Of a stretch of DNA of 64,000 bases, positions 34,046 to 52,257 are shown in pieces. The notes under the pieces were generated by a model. It was given only the letters and a program-made list of their open reading frames with translations, had not been told where the DNA came from and did not search any database. The position numbers and the translations under genes were made by a program. This stretch comes from Prosthecobacter algae. GTDB taxonomy: Bacteria; Verrucomicrobiota; Verrucomicrobiia; Verrucomicrobiales; Verrucomicrobiaceae. Within the stretch, counting starts at the first letter, position 1, and every line of letters starts with the position of its first letter. Where the stretch lies: assembly GCF_039542385.1 (NCBI RefSeq), contig NZ_BAABIA010000001.1, positions 558,001 through 622,000 of the forward strand. Reading direction: 5' to 3'.

Positions 34046-34705
34046 ATGAAAACAAAATTCCTTTCTCTGGCTGGGGTGGTCTTGTGTGCCGCCGCCCTTA
34101 GCTCCTGTGTGAACTACGATGAGTATGGTTACGGTTATTCCGGGGTCGCGCCTGTGGGCGGCACTGTTTACGTGGATGATGGCCCCTACTACGGTGGCGG
34201 GTATGGCTACGGCGGCTACGGCTACGCGCCTGCCTATACCAGCGTCGGTTTCCTGGGCTTTGGCGGTGGGGGATTCTTTCCCGGTTACGGCTATGGCGGC
34301 TCCTATTACAACCGCCACCGCCATCACGATCACCATGACCATCACGACGGCGGCTATTACCGGTCTTCGTCCGCCAGCTCCAGATATGCCTCTCGGGTGA
34401 GCCGCCCGAGTTCTTCCCTGGGAGGTTCGGTAGGTCGTGCGCCGCTGACGCCTTCGCTGCCTTCGCCCCGCCAGTTGACGCGTCCTTCCAGCAGCTCTTC
34501 ACGGGCTTCGCGTTCGTTTACCTCGCCCGCGCCGACGATGCGTTCGGCACCGCGTGTGCAATCTCGGCCAGCCCCGGCGATGCGTTCAAGCCCTGCGCCT
34601 AGCATGCGTTCGGCTCCTCGGGTGACGACGGCTTCGGCCCGTTCGGCTCCAGCATCTGTGGGTCGTGCACCTGCGGCATCTTCGGATCGTCGTCGTTCGC
34701 GCTAA
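34046..34705 (+). CDS. Low-complexity lipoprotein, Gly/Tyr- and His-rich
   Basis: A 219-residue protein with a lipoprotein signal ending 'AALSSC' (Cys21). The mature part has three blocks: Gly/Tyr-rich (about 24-90, 'YYGGGYGYGGYGYAP'), a His/Asp cluster 'HRHHDHHDHHD' (about 91-102), and a Ser/Arg/Pro-rich tail with repeats of 'MRSAPRV' and 'RPAPAMRSSPAPSMRS'. No enzyme motif is visible. The His cluster could bind metal and the Tyr/Gly block could be adhesive or structural; both are inference. A weak promoter (GTGACA at 33985, AATAAT at 34010, 19-base spacing) precedes it, and a strong terminator follows. Confidence 0.7.
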   Translation: MKTKFLSLAGVVLCAAALSSCVNYDEYGYGYSGVAPVGGTVYVDDGPYYGGGYGYGGYGYAPAYTSVGFLGFGGGGFFPGYGYGGSYYNRHRHHDHHDHHDGGYYRSSSASSRYASRVSRPSSSLGGSVGRAPLTPSLPSPRQLTRPSSSSSRASRSFTSPAPTMRSAPRVQSRPAPAMRSSPAPSMRSAPRVTTASARSAPASVGRAPAASSDRRRSR

Positions 34706-34810: not shown

Positions 34811-36841
34811 TCAGAAGTATTTCTTGGAGAAGAGGAGCCGGGCCATTTGCTGGTTGCGATCAAGCAGGCCTTTGAGCTGCTGCTGATTGCTGTAGATGAG
34901 GGCTCCCTGGGCGGGATACTGCTGCTGGAGGACTTCGCACTGGGCAGCGAGCTGTTCGACGGCGATTTTCAGCTCCTTCACCTTGCGGCTTTCATCGGCG
35001 GTGATGCGGCCTTCGTAGATGGTGTGGTGGAGGATGTCGGTCTCGCGGGTGAGGTAGGAGACGGCGTTGGGCAGGGCCTCGGGTCCGCCGATGATGGCCC
35101 CACTGTTAGGATCCACCTGAGGGATTTTCGGCAGCATTTTGTCTGGGCGCTGGGGGATGACGGACTGCGGTTCATTGGGCAGGCCGCCGTCGCGGGCGTC
35201 GATGATCTGCGGGGTGATGAAGAGCATGAGGTTCTTGTGGTTCTTGCTCTTGCTGTCGTATTTGAAGGCCTTGCCCAAAACGGGGATGCTGTGCAGGAAA
35301 GGGATGCCGGCTTTGCCTTCACGCTCGCGGGCTTCATCCAGGCCGCCGACGGCGACGGTATAGCCGGAATTGACCTCGACAGGGGCATTGTAAACGCGGG
35401 AGGAGGCAACGGGGTAGGGGTTGCCATTGATGATCTCGGTGCTGATGATGCTGGAAACCGTCACTGCCATGTTGAGGAGGATTTTGTCATTCTCCATGCG
35501 CTTGGGCAGGATGTTGAGCACGGTACCGATGGGCAGGTAAGCGATGGATGAGGTGGTGGTGGCCCCTGCGCCGACGGTGGCGGAGGCGGTGCCATCGAGG
35601 ACGGGCTGGTTCACTACGCTGCGGAAGGAGACTTCGCTGTTGTTCATGGTGACCATGCGGGGATAGGAGGTCATTTGCGTTTCCTCATCGCGCAGGAGGG
35701 CGCGGAGTTTCACATTGATGTCTTGAGAACTGAGGATGCCTAAGGCTGGGTAGCCGAGGGCACCTCCGGCAGCATTTAAGTTGGTGGGGCTGAGGAGGTT
35801 GGTGAGGTCGGCCCGGTAGCCGCCATTGGTGGCGACGTTGTCATACTCCACCTGGATGGAACGGCGACCGGTGTCTTCGTCGATTTCTTCGGTGACCTGG
35901 TTGACCTGGCGGAAGTTGCCAGTGTCGAAAGTACCCGTCCAGTCGATGCCGAACTCGCGTTTGGGATCGCGGGTGGTTTCGATGAACTTCACCTCGATGG
36001 CGATGAGGGTCTGGGGTTTGTCGGCGATTTCGAGGAAGCCTTCCACCCACATGTGCTGGAGGCGGGTGGCGACGATGTAGAGGGTGTTGGAGTCGGACTT
36101 CCAGATGACTTTGGGTTTGCGGAAGGCGCTGAGTTCGTTGGAGTTCATGGCCTTGGTGGGATCGCCACCGACACCGGCGATGGAGCCGAGATCACCGCCG
36201 CTCTGGCTGCTGGTTTCCTGTTCTTCGGTGGGCAGGCTGAGGAGGGAGCGGATGTCATTGATGATTTCGCTGCGGCGCACGGAGAAGGTTTCCTGGTTTC
36301 CCTGGAGATTCACGCCCCCCGCAGATGCACCGCCGCCGCCACCCCCACCACCGCCGCCGGAGCCCCCCACGGGAGTGAGGCTGAGGCCGGAGCCGGAATT
36401 AACGCGGTCCACACGCTCAAGGGCATTGTGGCGGATCTGGTAAGATTTGCCGATGAGTTCTTTGTCATCCGCAGGCCGGATGTACCAGATGCCATTGTCA
36501 GGGATGATGGCGAGCTGGTTGGCATTGCAGAGGGTCTCCAGCACGCGAAAGGGGCTGGCCTTGATGGTGAAGGTGACCTGGCGGGAGCCCTCAGGGCTGT
36601 CATTGGGAAGGGAAAAGAAGGACATCCCGGCATCCGTGGCCAGAAAGCGCAGCACATCGGAAAGGATGGCGTTGGAAAACTCATACTGCTGTGGCGGGGC
36701 ATCCCGCAGCTTCTGAGCTTCCGCCTCGAACACGGCAGAGGAGAAGTTGAAGGAGGGGCTGCTCATCTGCGCACCTGCAGGGCGAAGAACAAGGCATGTC
36801 CCGAGGCAGAGGATCCAAAAAAGTGGGCGCAGAGTGTGCAT
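34811..36841 (-). CDS. Secretin (type II/III secretion or type IV pilus family, Amuc_1098-like)
   Basis: A 676-residue outer-membrane secretin. A signal peptide (1-24) is followed by a short N-terminal STN-like domain (about 52-122, 'SNAILSDVLRFLATDAGMSFF'), a poly-Gly run (159-171) inside a linker, an N-domain ('SNTLYIVATRLQHMWVEGFLEIADKPQ') and the secretin barrel (about 340-560). The barrel ends in the classic 'GIPFLHSIPVLGKAFKYDSKSKNHKNLMLFITPQII'-type motif (residues in order, split in the protein by no gap). A C-terminal helical tail of about 100 residues follows, which could be a pilotin or partner site. The layout matches the Akkermansia Amuc_1098 type. It is divergent from the pilin/assembly genes and almost certainly the outer-membrane pore of that system. 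Confidence 0.92.
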   Translation of the reverse strand: MHTLRPLFWILCLGTCLVLRPAGAQMSSPSFNFSSAVFEAEAQKLRDAPPQQYEFSNAILSDVLRFLATDAGMSFFSLPNDSPEGSRQVTFTIKASPFRVLETLCNANQLAIIPDNGIWYIRPADDKELIGKSYQIRHNALERVDRVNSGSGLSLTPVGGSGGGGGGGGGGASAGGVNLQGNQETFSVRRSEIINDIRSLLSLPTEEQETSSQSGGDLGSIAGVGGDPTKAMNSNELSAFRKPKVIWKSDSNTLYIVATRLQHMWVEGFLEIADKPQTLIAIEVKFIETTRDPKREFGIDWTGTFDTGNFRQVNQVTEEIDEDTGRRSIQVEYDNVATNGGYRADLTNLLSPTNLNAAGGALGYPALGILSSQDINVKLRALLRDEETQMTSYPRMVTMNNSEVSFRSVVNQPVLDGTASATVGAGATTTSSIAYLPIGTVLNILPKRMENDKILLNMAVTVSSIISTEIINGNPYPVASSRVYNAPVEVNSGYTVAVGGLDEAREREGKAGIPFLHSIPVLGKAFKYDSKSKNHKNLMLFITPQIIDARDGGLPNEPQSVIPQRPDKMLPKIPQVDPNSGAIIGGPEALPNAVSYLTRETDILHHTIYEGRITADESRKVKELKIAVEQLAAQCEVLQQQYPAQGALIYSNQQQLKGLLDRNQQMARLLFSKKYF

Positions 36842-37092: not shown

Positions 37093-38709
37093 ATGGATTC
37101 CGTGCTCCCTCCTCCCTCTCTCCGCCAGCGCTCCCATCCTGGGCAGCGGCAGGGCTTTTCGGTGATGGAGCTGGTGGTGATCATCGCCATGCTGGGGGTC
37201 CTGGCCACGGTGGTGCTGACTCTGGTGGGCCAGCAGCCCGTGGCGGTGCGGAATACCAAGCTGTCCTCCGATGTGGCCACGCTGAATCAGATGCTGGCAG
37301 TGTACAGTTCTGATGGGGGCGACCTGAAGAATCTGTCGGACGCGCAGAGGGTCCTCGACAAGCTGAAGCGCACGCGGCCACAGGTCGAGTGGAAGCGCCA
37401 CACGGGCCCGGCTTCTGGAAGGCTGATTGATATCCGCCTGCGTGCCCGGGTGACATCCGAGCCGGAAAAGAGCGGCCAGGAGCGTGCTAAGTGGAACAGC
37501 AGCAAAATGCGCTTTGAAATGACCAAGGGGAGTGGTGTGGCTGTGAGTGAATTTTACCTGGATGAGACCCTGGCCGGGACAGATCCTGGCACGGAACCCC
37601 GGACGGTGAGCGCCGTGCGCTACAATGTGGGCAGCGGCAAGAACCAGGGCTGGGTGTGGGGACATTCCAAATCAGGCACGGCCTCCTACAACAGTCCGGG
37701 CAGCAACAATGGCTCCGGTGTTTCCTCGCCCTTCAATCCACTGGCAAGTGCGCCCGTGCCACCGACCGACCCTACTGGGGGCGGTGGTGGAAGTGGTGGC
37801 GGCACGGGCGGTGGTGGCAGCGGGGGCGGTGGCGACCCTGGCGGCGGTGTTTCCCCACCGACGGCCACGCAACTGCCACGGCCGGGCATCAGCCCTTCCG
37901 GCGGTACCTTTGCCTTCGCTGCTTTTCCTGGCCAGGTTCTTTTGAGCCCGAACGGTGCGCCAGCCGCAGGATCCCGCCTGGAATACCGGGTGAATGCCGG
38001 GTCCTGGACTCCTTACTCGGGCACCCCGATCATCGTGGGATCTGCGGATAAGCTGGAAGCGCGCAATCTGGCCACGGACACGGCGCTCTATAAAAACAGC
38101 AGCGTGGCCTCGGCTTCCTACTTCCGCCTGGTTTCCGGCTTTTCCGGCTCGGGCACGGGGACCTGGGGGAATGCGACGGGTGGCACGGGCCTAGTCACGA
38201 ATGTTCAAAACGGCGACGACAAGTCTACCTTCAAGCATGGCAACACGAAGCTGGATCTCGGGAACGGGGAGTTTCTGGATGCCGGGGTGGAGAACGTGCT
38301 GACCTTTGACCCCAAGCCTTTTGAGACCGTCGTACCCAATGTCTGGTTTGCCCTGGGGGACTTGGTGATGCTGAACGGGACCACCTTTTACAACAGTGAG
38401 TCCGATGGGGTCACGCTGAGCATCAACTTGGGGCTTTCAGAGCCAGCGCACAGCGCGGTGGTGCACATCAATCTGGGCCTGGTGAGCACGGAAAATACGA
38501 GCGACCGTCTGTCCAGCGCGGACATCGTGGAACTGCGCAATCCGAGCACCGACTTCACCGTCACGGTGGATGGGGTGGAATACCGCCTGGAACTGGGCTG
38601 GGCCACGACGGATCCCGGTGCCGGTGTGGCGCAGGGGAACCAGTTTCTTGTGTTTGAAGGGGCCGCTGCCAGCGCACTTCTGCGAGGCCGCTTTGTGCCT
38701 AACAAATAG
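37093..38709 (+). CDS. Prepilin fused to Gly linker, chitobiase-C-like and choice-of-anchor-like domains
   Basis: A 538-residue modular protein. The N-terminus has a long leader and a type IV prepilin site: Gly21 followed by 'FSVMELVVIIAMLGVLATVV', with Phe+1 and Glu+5. A pilin-like head (about 50-180) is followed by a Ser/Pro and poly-Gly linker (about 205-252). Residues 260-345 ('ISPSGGTFAFAAFPGQVLLS', 'LEYRVNAGSWTPYSGTPII') resemble the chitobiase/beta-hexosaminidase C-terminal domain. Residues 350-535 ('GTWGNATGG', 'FALGDLVMLNGTTFYNSES') resemble choice-of-anchor K-type beta-sandwich domains; both domain names are from recall. Most pilins are 120-200 residues, so this is probably a tip or adhesive pilin. 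The stop codon lies within a GCCTAACAA motif. Confidence 0.82.
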   Translation: MDSVLPPPSLRQRSHPGQRQGFSVMELVVIIAMLGVLATVVLTLVGQQPVAVRNTKLSSDVATLNQMLAVYSSDGGDLKNLSDAQRVLDKLKRTRPQVEWKRHTGPASGRLIDIRLRARVTSEPEKSGQERAKWNSSKMRFEMTKGSGVAVSEFYLDETLAGTDPGTEPRTVSAVRYNVGSGKNQGWVWGHSKSGTASYNSPGSNNGSGVSSPFNPLASAPVPPTDPTGGGGGSGGGTGGGGSGGGGDPGGGVSPPTATQLPRPGISPSGGTFAFAAFPGQVLLSPNGAPAAGSRLEYRVNAGSWTPYSGTPIIVGSADKLEARNLATDTALYKNSSVASASYFRLVSGFSGSGTGTWGNATGGTGLVTNVQNGDDKSTFKHGNTKLDLGNGEFLDAGVENVLTFDPKPFETVVPNVWFALGDLVMLNGTTFYNSESDGVTLSINLGLSEPAHSAVVHINLGLVSTENTSDRLSSADIVELRNPSTDFTVTVDGVEYRLELGWATTDPGAGVAQGNQFLVFEGAAASALLRGRFVPNK

Positions 38710-38726: not shown

Positions 38727-39791
38727 ATGGAAGACATCAACGAACGCAGCCAACTGGGCTATCGCATGCTGCATCTGTCAAAGGATGCCGGGGTGAGCGA
38801 CTTTTACATCACGCCCTGGGAGCCGCTGACGTACCGGCGGAACGGCAAACTGTTCTTTGATTCCTTCATCTACCAGCCGGAGCGGCCGCTGGAGTTCACC
38901 GCCGGGTGCGTGGACTATGCGCTGGTGCTGGGCAGCCGCCGTTACCGTGTGAACCGCATGGTCACCCGCGGGCGTCCGCGCTGGGTCATGCGCTTGCTGC
39001 CGGAAAACATCCCGGACATCAGCAAACTGATGGTGCCACCTGCGGCGATCAAGGCTTTCCTGGAGGCCAAGAACGGCCTGTTTCTGGTGTGCGGGGCCAC
39101 GGGTTCCGGTAAGTCCACCACCATCGCCTCGATGATCCTGGAGCGTGCCAAACGCCGCCAGGAGCATGTGCTGACCTTTGAGGACCCCATTGAGTTCGTT
39201 TATCCCTCGGACATTCCTTCGCTGGTGTCTCAGCGTGAGATCGGCACGGATGAGCTGGACTTTAACAAGTCATTGCGCGCTGCTCTTCGTCAGGCCCCGG
39301 ACGTGATCCTGGTGGGGGAAATCCGTGATGGTGAGACGGCAGAGATCGCCCTGCAGGCGGCGGAAACGGGGCATGTGGTGGTGGCCACGCTGCACACCTC
39401 CAGCGCGGCGCAGACGGTGCAGCGTTACCTGAAGTTGATCCCGAGCGACCGCATGGAAAACGCCATGCTTTCCTTTGCCGACAGCTTCCGTGGTATCCTC
39501 TGCCAGCGCCTGCTCTTTGATGAGGCGCGAGGCAAACGCTTCCCCATTCATGAACTGCTGCTGCCGTATGATTCGGTGTGCGGCATGATCCGGCGCGGTG
39601 AGTTCAAGAACCTGGAGCAGGAGCTCGAGGCGGGCTTCACGCGCGGCATGATGAGCTTTGAAAGGTGCCTGGGCTTTCGCCAGCAGGACGGGTGGAAACC
39701 CTCCCAAACGCGCAAGACCGGCTACGCCGAACATGAGGTCTATGACTTCCTATCCCGAGAAAACCTGACTTCCGTTTATGCTGTTGGATGA
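38727..39791 (+). CDS. PilT-like secretion/retraction ATPase
   Basis: A 354-residue GspE/PilT-superfamily ATPase. Walker A 'GATGSGKST' (123-131), Asp box 'LTFEDPIEFVY', Walker B 'VILVGEIRDG' (193-202) and His box 'GHVVVATLHTSSA' (215-227) are complete. The C-terminal part 'SVCGMIRRGEFKNLEQELEAGF' and 'GMMSFER' corresponds to PilT's 'AIRNLIREGK' and 'GMQTMDQ' segments. The long N1 domain and the Cys4 metal site typical of PilB/GspE are absent. This is therefore of retraction-ATPase type, and the only motor encoded in this locus. It overlaps the next gene by 14 bases. It acts on the cytoplasmic face with the PilC-like platform. Confidence 0.9.
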   Translation: MEDINERSQLGYRMLHLSKDAGVSDFYITPWEPLTYRRNGKLFFDSFIYQPERPLEFTAGCVDYALVLGSRRYRVNRMVTRGRPRWVMRLLPENIPDISKLMVPPAAIKAFLEAKNGLFLVCGATGSGKSTTIASMILERAKRRQEHVLTFEDPIEFVYPSDIPSLVSQREIGTDELDFNKSLRAALRQAPDVILVGEIRDGETAEIALQAAETGHVVVATLHTSSAAQTVQRYLKLIPSDRMENAMLSFADSFRGILCQRLLFDEARGKRFPIHELLLPYDSVCGMIRRGEFKNLEQELEAGFTRGMMSFERCLGFRQQDGWKPSQTRKTGYAEHEVYDFLSRENLTSVYAVG

Positions 39792-40647
39792 AATCAAATC
39801 TGTACTGAGCTTTGCCGCCTTCAAACCGGAGGCGGATGATGCCAGCGTACCCTGGGGCCGGCGCTTTGAAGGGCGCAAGACCCTGCTGCTGAACGTGAGC
39901 CGAAACCAGACGAGCTGGCGAGGCATCAACAAGAAAGGCCGCTTTGAAGACGGCGGAGTCATGGAGGGTGAATTCTCCGACGTGGCACCGCAGCGCGCCG
40001 ATGAATGGCGGCAGATGGCGGATGGAGGCTGGTGCGTGGTCTCCGTGAACAACCGTTTCATCGTCAGCCTGGAGAACAACATGATGCGGGGAGAAAACTG
40101 CGTGCATCTGCTGCGCACGAATCCGCGCGCGGTGCTGGGGCCGAAGTTCGACCGTGGCAAGCGCTATGCCATCTGCCACCATCCGGAAAGCTCCGCCAGC
40201 ATGCTGCTGGCCTGTGAGGAGAGCATGGTGAAGGTGACGGAGGATGTGCTGAAGACCATTGGCATCCGGCCCGGGCGGGTGTGCTGCGGCCTTTTTGCCC
40301 TGTCGGAATATGCCATCCACCAACTGTATGCGGAGATGCGCGGGGCGGTGCCGCAGAACATGATCCTCATCGTCGCCTGCGAGGGCTCCATTGCAGTGCT
40401 GGTGCAGCAGGACGGGCAGTGGAAGGAACTGCGCTGCCGCAGCGGCCTGGGGCCGGATGCGGTGGAGACCTGCCTGCAAATCATCAGCCCGCTGGTGCAA
40501 AAGGTGCCGCAAGGCAGCCCAGTGTACTTCATGGGCGACGGGCAGGACGCGAAATTCCGTTCCGAACTTTTTGTTCACCTGGAGCGCCTGGGCACCAAGG
40601 ACCTGACACAGGAAGACCTGCTCTGGCGCATCCTCGGCCTTCATTAA
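39778..40647 (+). CDS. PilM-position protein (divergent actin-like assembly protein)
   Basis: A 289-residue protein with no membrane segment or signal. It sits directly before PilN- and PilO-like genes, where PilM (FtsA-like cytoplasmic ATPase) is found in type IV pilus operons and where Akkermansia has Amuc_1101. Patterns such as 'LLLNVSRNQTSW' and 'MILIVACEGSIAVLVQQDGQWKELRC' fit strands of an actin-like fold, but the classic phosphate-binding loops are not obvious. It could be a shortened or non-nucleotide-binding relative. It begins 14 bases inside the ATPase gene in another frame. Confidence 0.55.
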   Translation: MLLDEIKSVLSFAAFKPEADDASVPWGRRFEGRKTLLLNVSRNQTSWRGINKKGRFEDGGVMEGEFSDVAPQRADEWRQMADGGWCVVSVNNRFIVSLENNMMRGENCVHLLRTNPRAVLGPKFDRGKRYAICHHPESSASMLLACEESMVKVTEDVLKTIGIRPGRVCCGLFALSEYAIHQLYAEMRGAVPQNMILIVACEGSIAVLVQQDGQWKELRCRSGLGPDAVETCLQIISPLVQKVPQGSPVYFMGDGQDAKFRSELFVHLERLGTKDLTQEDLLWRILGLH

Positions 40648-40666: not shown

Positions 40667-41218
40667 ATGTCCGATTACATTTGCCACGACTTCAAAACGC
40701 CGCGCACTGACACGTCCAAGCGGCTGCCGAACTCCTTTAAGATGGTGCCGGTGGCCTTTTATCTGGCGCTTGTCGGTGGGGCCTATTTTATGACGATGGA
40801 CTGGATGGCCTACAAGCATGCCCAGCAGCAGAAGATCGCCTCCGAAGAGGTGAAAAAGCAGCACGAGGCGGTGACCAAAAAGATGGGGGACGAGAAGGCC
40901 GCGCTGGATGCTGAAACCGCCAAGGCGGAGGAGGTGGCCAAGTGGATGGAAGGGGCGCGCAACCTGCAGCCCATCAGCGTCGCCATCGCGCGGGCCATCC
41001 CACCGGAGGTGCGGATTTCTGACCTGACGATCGAGCGCAGTGACCAGGTGCCTGCAAACCTTTCCCTGGCGATGAAAATCAATGGCGGCTCGGTGACGGA
41101 GGTGGGGCTGATCGAAAGCAGCATCTCACGCCTGAACTACCGTTCCTACTCGCCCCAGCAGACGAAGTCTGGGGATCTCATCGAATATCGCTCCACGCTG
41201 GTGCGGCAGGAGCAGTGA
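40667..41218 (+). CDS. PilN-like single-pass assembly protein
   Basis: A 183-residue protein with a cytoplasmic N-terminal segment of about 27 residues, one transmembrane helix ('VPVAFYLALVGGAYFMTMDW'), a coiled coil (about 50-95, 'KIASEEVKKQHEAVTKK') and a ferredoxin-like domain ('IPPEVRISDLTIERSDQV', 'LSLAMKINGGSVTEVGLIESSISRL'). This matches PilN/GspL-C plans, in which the N-terminal peptide binds PilM. It follows the PilM-position gene by 19 bases and precedes a PilO-like gene by the same distance. Confidence 0.7.
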   Translation: MSDYICHDFKTPRTDTSKRLPNSFKMVPVAFYLALVGGAYFMTMDWMAYKHAQQQKIASEEVKKQHEAVTKKMGDEKAALDAETAKAEEVAKWMEGARNLQPISVAIARAIPPEVRISDLTIERSDQVPANLSLAMKINGGSVTEVGLIESSISRLNYRSYSPQQTKSGDLIEYRSTLVRQEQ

Positions 41219-41237: not shown

Positions 41238-41819
41238 ATGAATCCCAAACAACTCGCCTGTGTCGTGCTGATGATGTTCATCGGCTGCGTCACTTATTTT
41301 GGCCAGATCGTCCACAAGAAGGTGGGGGCGATGAAGAAGTCTGCGGACATGGCTGCGCAGGATGCGTTCAGCGCGGAAGGGGCGCGGCAGACGGCGGAGA
41401 TTTTGACGGCTAGGACCAAGGCGGAGACGGAGGAGGTCCGCCGGTTTCTGCAGGCCTGGAGCCCGCATGTGGACAAGGCGCAGACGGAGCAGGAAGTGGA
41501 AAGCACGATCGAGTTCAGCCTGCGCGAGCGCGGCATCTCGCTGGTGAGGTCCCGCAAGACGGAGGTGAAAACCTCGCGTGATAACAAGGTGATCCCGAAG
41601 ACGGTGCTGACGACGGTGGTCATCGAAGATGAGTTTGCCAAGGTGCTGAATTGGCTGGGTGATGTGGAAAAGCGCCTGCCATTGGCCCGAGTGAAAACCT
41701 GCCGCATCACGGGTGGCAGCACGGCCCGGCAGCTACGCCTGGACGTGTCCTTTGAGACCCCGTTGATCAACCTGGCTTCGGATCCTTCAGCGAGCGAGAA
41801 GACCAAGAAGAAAGCCTGA
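41238..41819 (+). CDS. PilO-like single-pass assembly protein (Amuc_1100-position)
   Basis: A 193-residue protein with an N-terminal transmembrane segment ('LACVVLMMFIGCVTYFGQIV'), a coiled coil (about 30-85) and an alpha/beta domain ('EVESTIEFSLRERGISLVR', 'VIEDEFAKVLNWLGDVEKRLPLARV'). The helix before strands and 'FAKVLNWLGDVEKRLPL' match the PilO ferredoxin-like domain, whose family form is 'y..l..fl..le..prlv.v'. By order it corresponds to Amuc_1100, the Akkermansia membrane protein with a similar fold, but it is much shorter than that 317-residue protein. A Lys-rich tail ends the protein. Confidence 0.7.
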   Translation: MNPKQLACVVLMMFIGCVTYFGQIVHKKVGAMKKSADMAAQDAFSAEGARQTAEILTARTKAETEEVRRFLQAWSPHVDKAQTEQEVESTIEFSLRERGISLVRSRKTEVKTSRDNKVIPKTVLTTVVIEDEFAKVLNWLGDVEKRLPLARVKTCRITGGSTARQLRLDVSFETPLINLASDPSASEKTKKKA

Positions 41820-41827
41820 TTTCCCCC

Positions 41828-42580
41828 ATGAAACGCATTTTATCTCTCATGCTCCTGCTTGCTGCCACCCTGGGCCTCCATGCCCAGGAAGAGGTGGAAG
41901 GGGAGGGGACGGAGCGCGTGCAATACGCGCTGATCCTGCCCGATGAAAAAACGCCCGAGCTGGTGAAGCCCGAGGAGAACAACCCCTTTGAAACGGCGGC
42001 GGATGGCGCTGTGGACGACGAGGGTGACACGGAAGAAAACCAGGTGCGCGACATGCTGCTGCGCATGCCTGTGGGCGGGGCCGTGAGCGGCCTGCGCGGT
42101 GTGCGGGTGATGCTGGGCGGGATGCGCCTGGAGCAGGGAATGAACGTGCCGCCCGTGATCCCAGACCAGCAGGTGACACTGCGGGTGAAGTCCATCACGT
42201 CGGCCGCCATCGAGCTGGTGTGGGTGGAGAAAAAACCGACGGGGCTGCCACCCAAACTTTTGGTTATTCCGGTGGATGGTTCTCCCTCGGTCCGTTACCG
42301 CATGCCGACCTCGCCAGGGGCGGACCCTGCGGCTGGCGGCAGCATGGGCACGGTGCGGCGGCCCGATGTTTCCGCCCTGTCCCGTCCGGTGGCGGATGGT
42401 GAGCCGATGGTGGCGCGTGCCCAGCCTGTGGAGACCCCGCCACCTGCCCCTTCATCTGCCACGCCGCCAGCCGCGCCCGCTGCGGCACCGAAAAAATCTT
42501 CTTCGTCGCCGCCTTCGGATGCGCCTGCGGCCTCCGTGCTGCGCATGCTGTTTGGCAACCGTCCGTCTCCGGCTAAATGA
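41828..42580 (+). CDS. Periplasmic PilP-position protein
   Basis: A 250-residue protein with a signal peptide (1-19, 'LMLLLAATLGLHA'). Residues 75-160 form a small beta-rich domain ('GAVSGLRGVRVMLGGMRLEQG', 'VTLRVKSITSAAIELVWVEKK') that recalls PilP/GspC homology-region domains which bind secretins. The remaining 80 residues are Pro/Ala/Ser-rich and disordered. Position after PilN/PilO-like genes supports a role linking inner-membrane parts to the secretin. The stop overlaps the next start by four bases. Confidence 0.55.
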   Translation: MKRILSLMLLLAATLGLHAQEEVEGEGTERVQYALILPDEKTPELVKPEENNPFETAADGAVDDEGDTEENQVRDMLLRMPVGGAVSGLRGVRVMLGGMRLEQGMNVPPVIPDQQVTLRVKSITSAAIELVWVEKKPTGLPPKLLVIPVDGSPSVRYRMPTSPGADPAAGGSMGTVRRPDVSALSRPVADGEPMVARAQPVETPPPAPSSATPPAAPAAAPKKSSSSPPSDAPAASVLRMLFGNRPSPAK

Positions 42581-43575
42581 GCATTCCCCACCAGCTTCTG
42601 CGGCGGCGCTACGGCTTTACCTCCATTGAGCTGCTGATGGTCCTCTCCCTCTCGGCCCTGGTGCTGGGCGGGATCGTGGTGAGCTATGGCACGCTGGTGC
42701 GCAGCCAGCCGCAGGTGGCGAGTGTGGTGGCAGTGCCGCTGGGCAGCACGCGGCTGGTTCGTTTTTACGGCAGCAATGACACGAAGCGGCAGAACACGGC
42801 CTCCGCTCCCAGCTATGGCAGCCTAGCGCTGGCAGAGGAGCTGCGGGAGCAGTTTTACCACGATGTGCTGAGTGCCACGGCGGTGTTTTGCTTGCCGCGT
42901 GCGGATGACAACACCTGGAAGCCTGCCTACATCAAATACAATCCAGACACAGACGAAGAGCTGGACACTTCGCAGAAGTTTCGTGAGCACATCATCCGTG
43001 TGGCCGGAGTGCCCGCCAGCCAGTATCAAAACTACCGCAATCCCGGGGCCAGCAGTGAGAAGGACCAGCCAAACCTCAGTGTCTTCATCCTGGGCTACGG
43101 CGGCTACTCGGGCTACCTGCATGTGCAGGCCATCTATGACATTGATGTGATCCGTTTCAAAGGCGGCAGCCAGCCGCTGGGATTCCATGCCAGTGTGAAG
43201 CGATATACGGATCCGGCAGGCCCACCGCCAGGGGTGGACTACAGCCTCATTTTTTCCGGTGGTTACTCGGTGTTTTATCCCCCGGCGAATCCGGCGGCGA
43301 CCAAGGAGGCGGACATGGCCAAGGATGGCTTTACACCGCTGTTCGTTTCCTTTGAACGCTCCACCCGGCTGGCGTTGCGTGAGTCCACCGCGATCGACCG
43401 TTTCAAGCTGGCGGCTGAGCGGCCTTTCTATTTCATGTGGTGGCCGGACCCGGCAGCCCGGCACCTGGGGGAGCAAAAGAACACGGCACCCACCAGCACC
43501 CCCCAGCAGGCCTACAATCACATGGCGGGCCGCACCTCCTTCATGTTTACCGTGCCGATGTTTCCGGCGCTCTGA
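42577..43575 (+). CDS. GspJ/PilW-like minor prepilin
   Basis: A 332-residue protein with a short basic leader and a type IV prepilin site: Gly13 followed by 'FTSIELLMVLSLSALVLGG', with Glu+5. A large globular domain follows; it is longer than usual GspJ proteins (about 200 residues). Proteins of this kind are found in Verrucomicrobiota as parts of repeated 'Verru_Chthon' pilin cassettes; the membership here is inferred from size, motif and order. In type II secretion, GspI-J-K form a tip complex, and the same set (J-K-I order) appears here. It overlaps the PilP-position gene by four bases. Confidence 0.8.
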   Translation: MSIPHQLLRRRYGFTSIELLMVLSLSALVLGGIVVSYGTLVRSQPQVASVVAVPLGSTRLVRFYGSNDTKRQNTASAPSYGSLALAEELREQFYHDVLSATAVFCLPRADDNTWKPAYIKYNPDTDEELDTSQKFREHIIRVAGVPASQYQNYRNPGASSEKDQPNLSVFILGYGGYSGYLHVQAIYDIDVIRFKGGSQPLGFHASVKRYTDPAGPPPGVDYSLIFSGGYSVFYPPANPAATKEADMAKDGFTPLFVSFERSTRLALRESTAIDRFKLAAERPFYFMWWPDPAARHLGEQKNTAPTSTPQQAYNHMAGRTSFMFTVPMFPAL

Positions 43576-43584
43576 GACCTAGCC

Positions 43585-45174
43585 ATGAAAGTCCGCTTCC
43601 AACTTCCAGCTTCGCCGCGCAAGGGTGCCCTCATGGGGGTGGCCCTGATATTGATGCTGTGCAGCGGCCTTTTCCTGGCGGGCTGGGTGACGATGATGAG
43701 CACGCGCGCCATCCAGGTGAGCTGGCTGGAGAGCGCGATGCAACGGCGAATCGGCCTGGAAAATTCCCGGCTGCTGGCCTGGCAGACTTCCATGGACCAT
43801 GCCTTTGACCGCGAGGCGGATCTGGACAAGAAATCGGTCCTTCTTTTCAATGGCAAGGCGGGTGCGCTGAACACGCAGGACGGTTGGAAAAAGCTGAACC
43901 TTTACAGTGTGCTGACCTCGCCGCTGACGATGACGGAGAACTTCCCTTACAACCCGAACGGGCTGCGCCCAGGAAGCTCGTATTTGGCGCATGAGACCTT
44001 TATCCGCGCCGATCTGCCTAACAATGTTTCACTGGACAGCTTCGCGGCACATGAGTTTTTGAAAAGCCGCAGCCCGGTGCTGAATGGCGATCTGTTTGTG
44101 ATCTACCGGAAGCCTGCGGCCGCCGTGACGGAGCTGAACATCTACAAGAATGTGTCGCCCTTCCAGGTGCATGGGCGCACGGTGGTGCGGCACCCGCCAT
44201 CGCTGTTTGTGAAGAACACCTCCCAGGTGGATCTGCCGTTTCTGACGAAGTCGCTCTACATCCAGTCTCACGATTCGGTTTCGCGGTATCCGGTGACGGG
44301 CACCGGGCTGGATAGCAAGGTGCTGCTGCCCTCGAACCTGGCGGTGGTGCCTGCTTCTCTGGGGCCGGATTCAGCGGCGGCGAGCAAGCTCTTTGATGGC
44401 TTCCTGAACGTCATCGAAAATGCGGACAATCCGGAGAACTCGCTGGCCCACACGCTCCGCAAAGGGCTGTATGAAAACATCGAGGTGTATAAGGACAACC
44501 TGCCGCCGACCGGGCCATACTGGATGGCGAAGTATGACACGCAGGCCCCACCCGTGCCGCCGCCGGACTATGCGAATGGCGGCTTTGAGGTGCCCTTCCG
44601 GACGATGTATGTGAATCTGGCGAACCCCAGCCTGAAGCATCTTTACATCCGCCAGGACATCCGTGTGGTGGACCAGATCGTCTTTGTGGGGCAGAGAAAT
44701 GCGGCGGACTATGAAGCCGCAGGGGCGATGAGCCCGGTGATCGTCACGCTGGTGCAGGGGTCCGGCTCGCCGGTGCGCAACATCGCCTTTCAGCATGAGA
44801 ACAATCGCCGGCTGATCCTGGGCACCAAGGTGAAGGCCGGCCTAACCACTCGTGAGCTCATTTTTTCCTGGGCTGGCAATCCGATCCTGGGGCGGGAGCT
44901 ACGCTGGCGGATGACGCTGATCAATGAAGGCTTCCCGGTGCTGATGAACCTGCACGAAAATGCCACGACGGACATCCGCTGGATCGGCGGCATCATGACG
45001 AACTGGTCCGTCTGGCGGAACATTTTCACCGGCCCGCGCAGTGACCGCCTCATCCTACAATCCGACAGCGCGGTGCCCACGCTGCCAGTCGTGGGGGCCA
45101 GCTATGAATCCCTCCTGCCGCGCGAGGCGTGGCTGGAGTCGTACTTCCTGCCGATCCCCCCAGCCAGTTTATGA
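43585..45174 (+). CDS. GspK/PilX-like large minor pilin-type protein
   Basis: A 529-residue protein. The N-terminus 'SPRKGALMGVALILMLCSGLFLAGWV' has a basic leader, Gly and a hydrophobic helix without the Glu+5. This is the hallmark of GspK-type tip pseudopilins and of Verru_Chthon cassette 'A' proteins. The long extracytoplasmic part is beta-rich with no recognised domain. It lies between GspJ-like and GspI-like genes, fitting a tip complex. The stop overlaps the next gene's start by four bases. Confidence 0.72.
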   Translation: MKVRFQLPASPRKGALMGVALILMLCSGLFLAGWVTMMSTRAIQVSWLESAMQRRIGLENSRLLAWQTSMDHAFDREADLDKKSVLLFNGKAGALNTQDGWKKLNLYSVLTSPLTMTENFPYNPNGLRPGSSYLAHETFIRADLPNNVSLDSFAAHEFLKSRSPVLNGDLFVIYRKPAAAVTELNIYKNVSPFQVHGRTVVRHPPSLFVKNTSQVDLPFLTKSLYIQSHDSVSRYPVTGTGLDSKVLLPSNLAVVPASLGPDSAAASKLFDGFLNVIENADNPENSLAHTLRKGLYENIEVYKDNLPPTGPYWMAKYDTQAPPVPPPDYANGGFEVPFRTMYVNLANPSLKHLYIRQDIRVVDQIVFVGQRNAADYEAAGAMSPVIVTLVQGSGSPVRNIAFQHENNRRLILGTKVKAGLTTRELIFSWAGNPILGRELRWRMTLINEGFPVLMNLHENATTDIRWIGGIMTNWSVWRNIFTGPRSDRLILQSDSAVPTLPVVGASYESLLPREAWLESYFLPIPPASL

Positions 45175-45668: not shown

Positions 45669-46895
45669 ATGCTGAAGAAAGTCACCATCACCAATGTCAA
45701 TACCGGGCACAAATCCATCTCCATGGTGGATACGGACACGCATGAGAAGGCGCTGATCGGCTGCGGCATCGCGGCGAATGAGACGGCCTCCATCGAGGAC
45801 ATCACGGGCCCGGATGAAAAGCTGCAGCGGCTGACTTCGCCCAAGGGCGGATCTGAAGATTGTGGGGCGTTTTTCTCTGGCCTGGGCCGATGCCTGGAGC
45901 GCAACATCAGCATGACGAAAAGCCTGCGCCTGCAGGTGAACCGCGTGGCCTCCGCCCGCTACAAGGGCATGATCGCGGAAGTGATCCATGCCATTTCGAT
46001 GGGGGAGAAATTCAGCGATGCGATCGCCCGCTTTCGGGATCTTTTCACGGAGGACATTCTGTCCCTGGTCATCGCCGGGGAAGAGGCGGGGCAGCTTGCC
46101 CGCGTGTGCAAGCGCATCGGCGTGGCGCAGAAGAAGTCATCGAAGACGCTGAAGAAGCTGAAGGGTGCGATGATCTATCCCGGGGTGGTGATGGTGCTGG
46201 GCGTGGTGGTGGTGATCATCATGAGCTTCACGCTGGTGCCGGCGATGTCGAAGCTTTTCACGAGCTTCAATGCGGACCTGCCCTTTGCCACGAAGGCGTT
46301 GATTGCGCTTTCGGATCTGTTCATCAACAAACCCTACATGGCGGCGGCCCCGCTGGTGGGGCTGTATGTGTTGTTTTCGAACTTCAACAAGATCATGTCC
46401 CAGCGCTGGGTGCAGGACCTGGTGCTGAAGCTGCCTGTGGTGGGGATGCTGGTGCGGAAATCGGCCTCCGCCGCAGGCTTTCGCACGCTGGCCATGCTCA
46501 CGGAATCCAATGTGCGCCTCACCAGTGCGCTGGAGATCACCTCCTCCGCCACCTGGCACTATCATTACAAGGAGTTCTTCAACCGCCTGCGCGACCACAT
46601 CAGCGTGGGGCGCACGCTGCATGAGGGATTCCTCATGGAATCTCATTGGTTAGGCTCGGATGGACGCAACCTCTGCGGTCTCATTGAGCTGGCCTCGGAA
46701 ACGGGCTCTGGCACGGAGATGCTGGCAGAGATCGCCGATGACTATGAGGAGGAGCTGGACAACATGGCGGCCTCGCTGGACAAGCTGATTGAGCCACTGA
46801 CGATGCTCATCCTCGGGGTCATGGTGGGCTTCCTCATCTATGCGATCTATGGCCCGATGTTCAGCCTGGGCGATGTCATCCTGAAGAAGAAGTAG
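45669..46895 (+). CDS. PilC/GspF-like inner-membrane platform protein
   Basis: A 408-residue type II secretion F-domain protein. Two homologous F domains (about 85-200 and 270-390) each carry a helical bundle; 'IAGEEAGQLARVCKRIGVAQKKSSK' and 'LASETGSGTEMLAEIADDYEEELD' are the repeated signature. Transmembrane segments are near 165-190, 215-240 and 370-395. The N-terminal 70 residues form a small extra domain. It anchors the ATPase to the pilus base. It is the last gene of the locus; no prepilin peptidase or PilB follows in the window. Confidence 0.92.
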   Translation: MLKKVTITNVNTGHKSISMVDTDTHEKALIGCGIAANETASIEDITGPDEKLQRLTSPKGGSEDCGAFFSGLGRCLERNISMTKSLRLQVNRVASARYKGMIAEVIHAISMGEKFSDAIARFRDLFTEDILSLVIAGEEAGQLARVCKRIGVAQKKSSKTLKKLKGAMIYPGVVMVLGVVVVIIMSFTLVPAMSKLFTSFNADLPFATKALIALSDLFINKPYMAAAPLVGLYVLFSNFNKIMSQRWVQDLVLKLPVVGMLVRKSASAAGFRTLAMLTESNVRLTSALEITSSATWHYHYKEFFNRLRDHISVGRTLHEGFLMESHWLGSDGRNLCGLIELASETGSGTEMLAEIADDYEEELDNMAASLDKLIEPLTMLILGVMVGFLIYAIYGPMFSLGDVILKKK

Positions 46896-46981
46896 GCGTG
46901 GCAGGGCAGCCTCCGCCCGTGTGCGTCGGGGGCTGTTTTTGAAAAGCTTGCATTGGGAAAGATCTCGGAGATCATGTGTTC

Positions 46982-48046
46982 ATGAGAACAGATGATTTGC
47001 CGGTCAATCGTCCCCGTGGGCGCGGGGCGGCTGCGAATACGGAGCAGCGGTTCTCCGCCCTGCAGATGACCTATGATCCGGGCGAGGAGCCGGAGAAGGT
47101 GGTGACGAAATTCTTCCATGACCACTCCAGCACCATCATCAGTCGGCACAGCAGCCCGGATCTGCCGTTTGAGGCCAGCCTGAATCCGTACCGGGGCTGT
47201 GAGCATGGTTGCGCTTATTGTTATGCACGGCCCACGCATGAGTGGCTGGGCTTTTCTGCCGGGGTGGATTTTGAATCCCGCATCATGGTGAAGACGGAGG
47301 CCCCGGCGCTGCTGCGGGCGGAACTGGCGCGGGACAAGTATGTGCCGGAGCGGCTGTCCCTGAGCGGGGTGACGGACTGCTATCAGCCGGCGGAAAAGCG
47401 GCTGGAGATCACCCGTGGCTGCCTGGCCGTGCTGGCGGAGTGCCGGCACCCGGTGGTGATGATCACGAAGAATCACCTCATCACTCGTGACATGGATCAC
47501 CTGGGGGAACTGGCCCGCCACCAGGCCACGGCTGCCTACATTTCCATCACCACGCTGGATGCAGACCTGGCGCGGAAGCTGGAGCCGCGCGCCTCCTCCC
47601 CCCAGATGCGGCTGGAGGCGATCCGCGCCCTGGCGGGGCAGGGGATCCCGGTGGGCGTCTCCGTGGCACCGATGATTCCAGGGCTGAATGACAGCGAGAT
47701 CCCAGCCATCCTGGAGGCCGCGCGGGAGGCGGGGGCGCAGTTCGCCGGATACACGGTGGTGCGGCTGCCCTTCAGCGTGAAGGAGGTCTTTGCCGCGTGG
47801 CTGGAGGCGCATTTCCCTGGGAGGAAGGACAAGGTGCTGGGCCGCATTGAGGAGACGCAGGGGCGCACGCTTTCGCACCCGGAATTCGGCAAGCGGCTGA
47901 AAGGCGTGGGCGTGTGGTCGGACCAGATCGCCCAGATCTTCAAGGTCTCGCTGAAACGTGCCAGGATGCTGCATCGGCGGCCCGAGGTGAATGCAGCGGC
48001 TTTCCGGCGACCGCGTGAGCGCGGTGGGCAGATGGAGCTGTGGTGA
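46982..48046 (+). CDS. Radical SAM protein, PA0069 (SplB-like) family
   Basis: A 354-residue radical SAM enzyme with the cluster motif 'GCEHGCAYCYA' (Cys-x3-Cys-x2-Cys) near residues 75-85. 'PYRGCEHGCAYCYARPTHEWLG' together with 'ISRHSSPDLPFEASLNPYRGC'-type context and 'LSGVTDCYQPAEK' define the PA0069-type group, distantly related to spore photoproduct lyase. The substrate is not established. The C-terminus ends in 'FRRPRERGGQMELW', typical of the group. ATG at 46982 is preferred to a GTG two codons upstream. Confidence 0.9.
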   Translation: MRTDDLPVNRPRGRGAAANTEQRFSALQMTYDPGEEPEKVVTKFFHDHSSTIISRHSSPDLPFEASLNPYRGCEHGCAYCYARPTHEWLGFSAGVDFESRIMVKTEAPALLRAELARDKYVPERLSLSGVTDCYQPAEKRLEITRGCLAVLAECRHPVVMITKNHLITRDMDHLGELARHQATAAYISITTLDADLARKLEPRASSPQMRLEAIRALAGQGIPVGVSVAPMIPGLNDSEIPAILEAAREAGAQFAGYTVVRLPFSVKEVFAAWLEAHFPGRKDKVLGRIEETQGRTLSHPEFGKRLKGVGVWSDQIAQIFKVSLKRARMLHRRPEVNAAAFRRPRERGGQMELW

Positions 48047-52182: not shown

Positions 52183-52257
52183 GCCGAAGTAGCTCAGTGG
52201 TAGAGCATCGCATTCGTAATGCGAGGGTCGCGGGTTCAAATCCCGCCTTCGGCTCCA
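52183..52257 (+). tRNA. tRNA-Thr (anticodon CGT), CCA encoded
   Basis: The acceptor arms GCCGAAG and CTTCGGC pair perfectly; D arm GCTCAGTGGTAGAGC, anticodon loop TTCGTAA with anticodon CGT at 52215-52217, and T arm GCGGGTTCAAATCCCGC are all present. Discriminator T is followed by an encoded CCA (52255-52257). It reads the Thr codon ACG. Confidence 0.95.

Follow-up and report, generated by a model that had tools for sequence, protein, structure and literature searches.

A candidate modular pilin with an RTX-adhesin-like choice-of-anchor K head in a putative type IV pilus operon of Prosthecobacter algae

Modular pilins are defined in the available part of PMC8179133 by a prepilin motif joined to a domain foreign to pili, and the most extreme multi-domain case given there has 860 residues. 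Streptococcus sanguinis PilB and PilC belong among the closest described systems, as do RTX adhesins, which are built from an anchor, immunoglobulin (Ig)-like extenders and a distal ligand-binding head (available parts of PMC10865825 and PMC12077191). Here we describe the 538-amino-acid (aa) product of an open reading frame (ORF) at 37093-38709 (+) in Prosthecobacter algae; the window, the whole stretch of DNA analyzed, comprises 64,000 nucleotides of contig NZ_BAABIA010000001.1. A sequence-only reading had proposed that this ORF encodes a prepilin with a Gly linker and two C-terminal adhesin-like domains. The feature is real: the reading frame is open, and its domains follow in the order prepilin N-terminus, carrier, Gly-rich linker, beta-sandwich and choice-of-anchor K (hereafter K). 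By its motif the product falls under the modular-pilin definition, whereas by curated prepilin profiles alone, on which its score is sub-threshold, it would fall outside. On balance, we think it probable that the protein is a modular pilin in which a pilin carrier, the Gly-rich linker and a likely spacer sandwich present a K head that likely binds peptide ends on cells or surfaces.

The identity of the head is central to this interpretation. As the sequence-only reading had anticipated, residues 351-526 match the K family (NCBIfam NF038131; E-value (E) 1.5e-21, 77 bits, cut-off 30), and this is the only K domain in the whole genome (E ≤ 0.01). Fold searches with the predicted model matched RTX-adhesin peptide-binding domains over the whole domain. 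Sequence comparison pointed the same way: a K profile (A6) run against PDB sequences recovered an RTX-adhesin peptide-binding domain at E 2.9e-7 over the second two thirds of the profile, and a narrower K profile (A3) recovered one at 3.2e-4. Four near-invariant polar residues of the K family align with residues of the RTX adhesin MpAFP (Table 1). Given the fold and the sequence match, a peptide is a better prediction for the ligand than the polysaccharide suggested earlier. K domains were also found with PEP-CTERM C-termini in P0163, P0165 and P0167 (TIGR02595 above cut-off), while P0161 had weaker PEP-CTERM matches; a peptide-binding-type fold is therefore likely to be common to PEP-CTERM surface proteins.

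The N-terminal half supports a prepilin-type carrier. The cleavage site and glutamate named earlier (Gly21/Phe22, Glu26) are present as described, and the motif [G/A]-F-x3-E occurs in 97 of 120 listed homologs, the closest named of which belong to Prosthecobacter. One further homolog has GY..E, 12 were caught by a loose pattern alone, having different residues there, and 10 have no match; three of these ten carry G-H at the site and seven start inside the motif or the helix. An AlphaFold2 model built from 27 rows shows a long helix (residues 24-73), a small head, a low-confidence Gly-rich segment (187-254) and two C-terminal beta domains. When a carrier-family profile made from nine carrier domains (A7) was run against PDB sequences, it recovered pilins of known structure, for the most part through the N-terminal helix (Geopilin, 2.9e-10; PilE1, 4.3e-8; GspG, 8.3e-8). 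The Pfam N_methyl family (PF07963) matched 11 of the 27 rows of alignment A1 at E ≤ 0.1 (best 1.3e-5), the row of the window not being among them. The Gly linker, of about 68 residues, was likewise borne out, its predicted local distance difference test (pLDDT) score lying below 50. Independent beta domains were predicted after residue 255, where the sequence-only reading had named their absence as the outcome against it. In describing a carrier of prepilin type joined to further modules, with a C-terminal half that resembles adhesins, that reading is supported.

To place this architecture among its relatives, one carrier-domain query was searched against the order and matched 93 of 189 genomes at E ≤ 1e-10, including 27 of the 39 in the genus of the window. 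Genomes of another family (f3) often hold several carrier copies, in listed open frames of up to 2238 aa. Seventy-one loci were fetched and scanned, yielding 77 carrier ORFs, of which 36 lay in the operon slot (a PilT relative on the same strand no more than about 200 bases downstream, or a secretin in divergent orientation no more than about 1,300 bases upstream) and 41 elsewhere; contig ends can hide a slot. L049, L053 and L054 were excluded because their carrier match was too short. Certain of these rows had also gone into building the search profiles; for the spacer profile, made from the window and 30 in-slot relatives, they number 30 of 77.

The first C-terminal sandwich appears to be a structural rather than a binding element. 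It had been likened to a chitobiase C-terminal domain, and a separate, confident beta-sandwich was indeed predicted, but the CHB_HEX_C_1 profile (PF13290) matched neither the 538-aa protein (E ≤ 1) nor the 27 rows of A1 (E ≤ 0.1), and no Pfam family covered residues 256-347 at E ≤ 1. The chitobiase-like impression has some ground, because a CHB_HEX_C (PF03174) match in relative L040 has its best stretch (538-558) within a copy of the repeat unit, or M unit, that spans 498-562 (E 1.9e-8 for the protein as a whole, with no individual stretch significant by itself); a distant tie is possible. The M unit was found in 70 of the 77 relatives (necessarily in the 30 that built the profile, and in 40 of the 47 others), a proportion that is no population frequency because the loci were hand-chosen, many for unusual length or good flanks. 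Copy number ranges from 1 to 20: one in the window (by the model), two in L043 and L161 and twenty in L032, L140 and L141. In L133, an in-slot relative of 1805 aa, 15 head-to-tail units that are 40-76% identical to each other (mean 53%) stand between the carrier and a K head. The seven relatives lacking the unit (L035, L036, both of L037, both of L038, and L039) are the cadherin-like ones and one neighbor. Because the unit recurs 1-20 times in most relatives, the first sandwich looks like an extender or spacer, contrary to the earlier suggestion that both C-terminal domains are binding modules.

Heads vary on the same carrier. In the slot, 31 of 36 relatives have K and five a beta-propeller, fractions to which the same limit of hand-chosen loci applies. 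The five propeller relatives (L034, L135, L137, L138 and L139; 1285-1307 aa) share their propeller, which was recognized as DUF5122/delta-60 in L034 and L135. Outside the slot K was present in 14 of 41, and other heads included VWA (L044, L048, L163) and Big_9/cadherin-like domains; some of these relatives have long spacer arrays that end in a weak DUF4114 match. L032, L140, L141 and L033 are prepilin-type ORFs of about 2,100-2,830 aa (L141 ends at a contig end), with propeller repeats rather than a spacer array in L033. At L143 and L144 (G351:C289), eight carrier-type ORFs lie within about 26 kb, three with K and the rest with different or unrecognized C-terminal parts. On a carrier tree of 78 rows, a minimum of 11 changes is required to explain the four labels (K, propeller, VWA and other); for K by itself the figure is 8, and well-supported branches force 4 of these. 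The true number may be lower than 11, because "other" is a catch-all, because L167 and L170 (labeled "other", both ended by a contig end) begin a propeller too, and because the loci were hand-picked.

Table 1. Features of the candidate modular pilin and of its neighboring genes
Feature	Position	Strand	Basis
Prepilin leader, residues 1-21, ending in Gly21	37093..37155	+	Sequence, motif counts in homologs
Pilin carrier domain, residues 22-186: helix 24-73, then small alpha/beta head	37156..37650	+	AlphaFold2 model, carrier profile
Gly-rich flexible linker, residues 187-254	37651..37854	+	pLDDT < 50; Gly-rich stretch also in homologs
Ig-like beta-sandwich, putative spacer (M unit), residues 256-347	37858..38133	+	pLDDT ~95
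Choice-of-anchor K head, residues 350-538; fold predicted to be that of RTX-adhesin peptide-binding domains	38140..38706	+	NF038131, model, fold searches, profile
N428, polar and nearly invariant across K family; Asn at aligned MpAFP position	38374..38376	+	
N468, polar and nearly invariant across K family; Asn at aligned MpAFP position	38494..38496	+	
D477, polar and nearly invariant across K family; Asp at aligned MpAFP position	38521..38523	+	
E522, polar and nearly invariant across K family; Glu at aligned MpAFP position	38656..38658	+	
Divergent secretin	34811..36841	-	Pfam PF00263, 6.4e-33; adjoins pilin in relatives
PilT-type (retraction-type) ATPase	38727..39791	+	TIGR01420, 272 bits, below cut-off 319
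Accessory gene in pilM place and size range (putative name)	39778..40647	+	Gene order; no Pfam/NCBIfam family
Accessory gene in pilN place (putative)	40667..41218	+	Gene order
Accessory gene in pilO place (putative)	41238..41819	+	Gene order
Accessory gene in pilP place (putative)	41828..42580	+	Gene order; no NCBIfam match
Prepilin-like protein, 332 aa, E at +5	42577..43575	+	Weak GspH and N_methyl matches; conserved
Large 529-aa protein, N-terminal hydrophobic helix, no E at +5	43585..45174	+	Sequence; no family; conserved
Prepilin, 173 aa	45129..45650	+	TIGR02532, 22.4 bits, cut-off 16.3
PilC/GspF-type inner-membrane platform protein	45669..46895	+	Pfam PF00482, 4.8e-35

The genes from the pilin to the platform protein likely form one operon, since the gaps are short and some genes overlap. 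The pilin gene is flanked by the divergent secretin upstream and by the PilT-type ATPase downstream. The gene order was kept in all eight same-genus loci fetched with flanks; a search for relatives matched 35 of 56 genomes, and 27 of 35 in the genus of the window (its own genome included; two of these matches weak and partial). Compared with solved ATPases, the ATPase directly downstream of the pilin matched PilT at 1.9e-54, against 1.3e-31 for PilF, the best assembly ATPase, and 2.6e-28 for PilB. The product of the 529-aa gene could be a PilX/GspK-type tip pilin. The genome as a whole contains 11 T2SSE matches (including that of the window), 26 TIGR02532 matches (one within the operon, the 173-aa prepilin) and one prepilin peptidase frame, seen as two matching pieces of a single 414-aa frame. 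With so many T2SSE and TIGR02532 matches, several type IV filament systems probably coexist in this genome. A genome search for PilY1 gave no match, and no control matched in it either.

Three further observations concern the surroundings. Adjoining the secretin, 34046-34705 encodes a small protein rich in Gly, Tyr, Ser and Arg (219 aa) with a lipoprotein-like start by eye, which was matched in three of the eight same-genus loci. Beyond the pilus operon lies a PA0069-family radical SAM protein (46976-48046), also there in L055 and L056; the fetched flanks of the other six same-genus loci were short on this side. The start of an apparent ORF at 52197 is probably an artefact, because it overlaps a tRNA-Thr (cgt) at 52183-52257.

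Under the modular-pilin interpretation, the lone prepilin peptidase of the genome would cut at G21/F22, and the mature pilin would join a type IV filament by way of the neighboring secretin and platform protein, with an extension ATPase supplied from elsewhere in the genome. In the model, linker and spacer would keep the K head clear of the filament, where by homology it may capture exposed peptides, probably protein C-termini, as MpIBP does. The PilT-type ATPase of the operon would then draw the bound partner in by retraction.

Several observations weigh against this interpretation. The putative pilus operon includes no extension ATPase, and the genes in the pilM, pilN and pilO places gave no such match against PDB sequences. 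Prepilin profiles fell short on the 538-aa protein (PF07963: E 0.11, 12.6 bits, cut-off 21.2; GspG TIGR01710: E 5.6e-6, 26.4 bits, cut-off 88.85), which is also absent from the 26 TIGR02532 matches of its own genome at E ≤ 0.01. The K domain is apparently not pilus-specific, because it also occurs in PEP-CTERM proteins, and the peptide-binding domain of FrhA adjoins a split domain whereas K is terminal here. Finally, the K head is 16-19% identical to solved peptide-binding domains, and the conserved N/N/D/E may serve fold or metal only. As to the ligand, the head could be a glycan-binding module with which the pilus adheres to polysaccharides, the RTX-type fold having been reused for another ligand, but with fold and sequence both pointing to peptide-binding domains we consider this unlikely.

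Other explanations keep the head and change the setting in which it is displayed. It is rather doubtful, but deserves some weight, that the 538-aa protein is the main filament subunit of the operon, so that leashed heads cover the whole shaft and not only the tip. Its best pilin profile is GspG, the E at +5 is kept, Pfam/NCBIfam scans recognized no other GspG-like pilin in the operon, and the linker is long; yet the head and spacer are larger than the pilin part, 15 spacers on an in-slot ortholog would crowd a shaft, and the 26 TIGR02532 prepilins of the genome, that of the operon included, could supply the major pilin. S. sanguinis PilB and PilC are moreover modeled at the tip (available parts of PMC8179133 and PMC9934059). 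By analogy a tip location of the modular pilin is plausible, and tip display fits known modular pilins as these sources and the available part of PMC10191384 describe them. The apparatus might instead be a type II secretion-like machine whose pseudopilin uses its head to select cargo rather than to adhere, in keeping with the GspG-type N-terminus and with a secretin whose score is slightly higher for GspD (132.5 bits) than for PilQ (121.2), although neither comes near its cut-off. To our knowledge, type II secretion systems (T2SSs) do not use a PilT-type ATPase, and one lies directly downstream here; locus C16, with a T2SSE match in a 780-aa frame near four short prepilins, looks like the T2SS of this genome, making a pseudopilin very unlikely. 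Equally improbable is an N-terminus that acts as a membrane anchor only, as one more choice of anchor for a K surface protein and with no pilus. K domains do occur with several anchors, such as PEP-CTERM, and the prepilin scores are below cut-off, but the gene keeps its place in the secretin-PilT-PilC operon in all eight flanked same-genus loci, it adjoins PilT or the secretin in 36 of 77 relatives, and over the helix the carrier family matches pilins of known structure.

The modular-pilin reading therefore remains our preferred one, and judged from sequence and model it would be a new combination, in which extender units and a head of the RTX type are set on a dedicated verrucomicrobial carrier and the whole works like a modular pilin. 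Titles and abstract openings in the literature, with few subscription journals covered, contained no link between K and peptide-binding domains and no account of the verrucomicrobial family. With K heads on its pili, a cell would likely be able to hold on to proteins of other cells or of surfaces; the bacteria concerned are environmental ones whose pili have received little study. For a domain that until now took its name only from the variety of its anchors, the analysis offers a predicted fold, a homology and a class of ligand that can be tested. Head type and spacer number also vary on one carrier (15 spacers in an in-slot relative, one in the window), a natural series in which one could test how the reach of a pilus and the type of its head determine what it holds. 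A broader reading, which we regard as possible but tentative, is that a type IV pilin became the base on which Verrucomicrobiales recreated the plan of RTX adhesins, as retractable peptide-gripping pili, and that the whole K family consists of widespread peptide-binding heads; it covers the anchor, 1-20 Ig-like extenders and exchangeable ligand-binding heads, with K on pilins and PEP-CTERM proteins.

Like S. sanguinis PilB and PilC, the P. algae protein joins a pilin part to adhesive modules grafted onto it; VWA heads are likewise found within this carrier family, and PilC has an Ig-like module ahead of its head, as here (available part of PMC9934059). Unlike in PilB and PilC, the carrier domain and operon are different, the Gly-rich linker is long, the head is of the K/peptide-binding type and relatives have up to 20 spacer units, reaching 2,197-2,833 aa against the extreme of 860 residues given in the available part of PMC8179133. 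That source also describes PilC/PilY1 tip adhesins, whose role as a pilus-shown modular adhesin would apply here. PilY1 itself is no pilin and bears its propeller at the C-terminus, whereas the 538-aa protein has no PilY1 (PF05567) match at E ≤ 1, and the DUF5122-type propeller that five in-slot relatives carry on a pilin carrier differs from that of PilY1. PEP-CTERM proteins with choice-of-anchor K share the K domain well above the family cut-off, but are anchored by a C-terminal sorting signal instead of a prepilin-type N-terminus in a pilus operon. The RTX adhesins MpIBP/MpAFP and FrhA share with K the predicted head fold and a recognizable sequence relationship, and they have the same plan as outlined at the outset. 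Calcium may have a role in the peptide site. Their N-terminal domain plugs a type I export channel, where a pilin N-terminus stands here, and no RTX nonapeptide-repeat family before a type I signal was matched by Pfam in the 538-aa protein at E ≤ 1; with no such match and a different anchor, the product is not an RTX adhesin. RTX giants and type IV pili would be linked by the same head and by the same spacer-plus-head layout.
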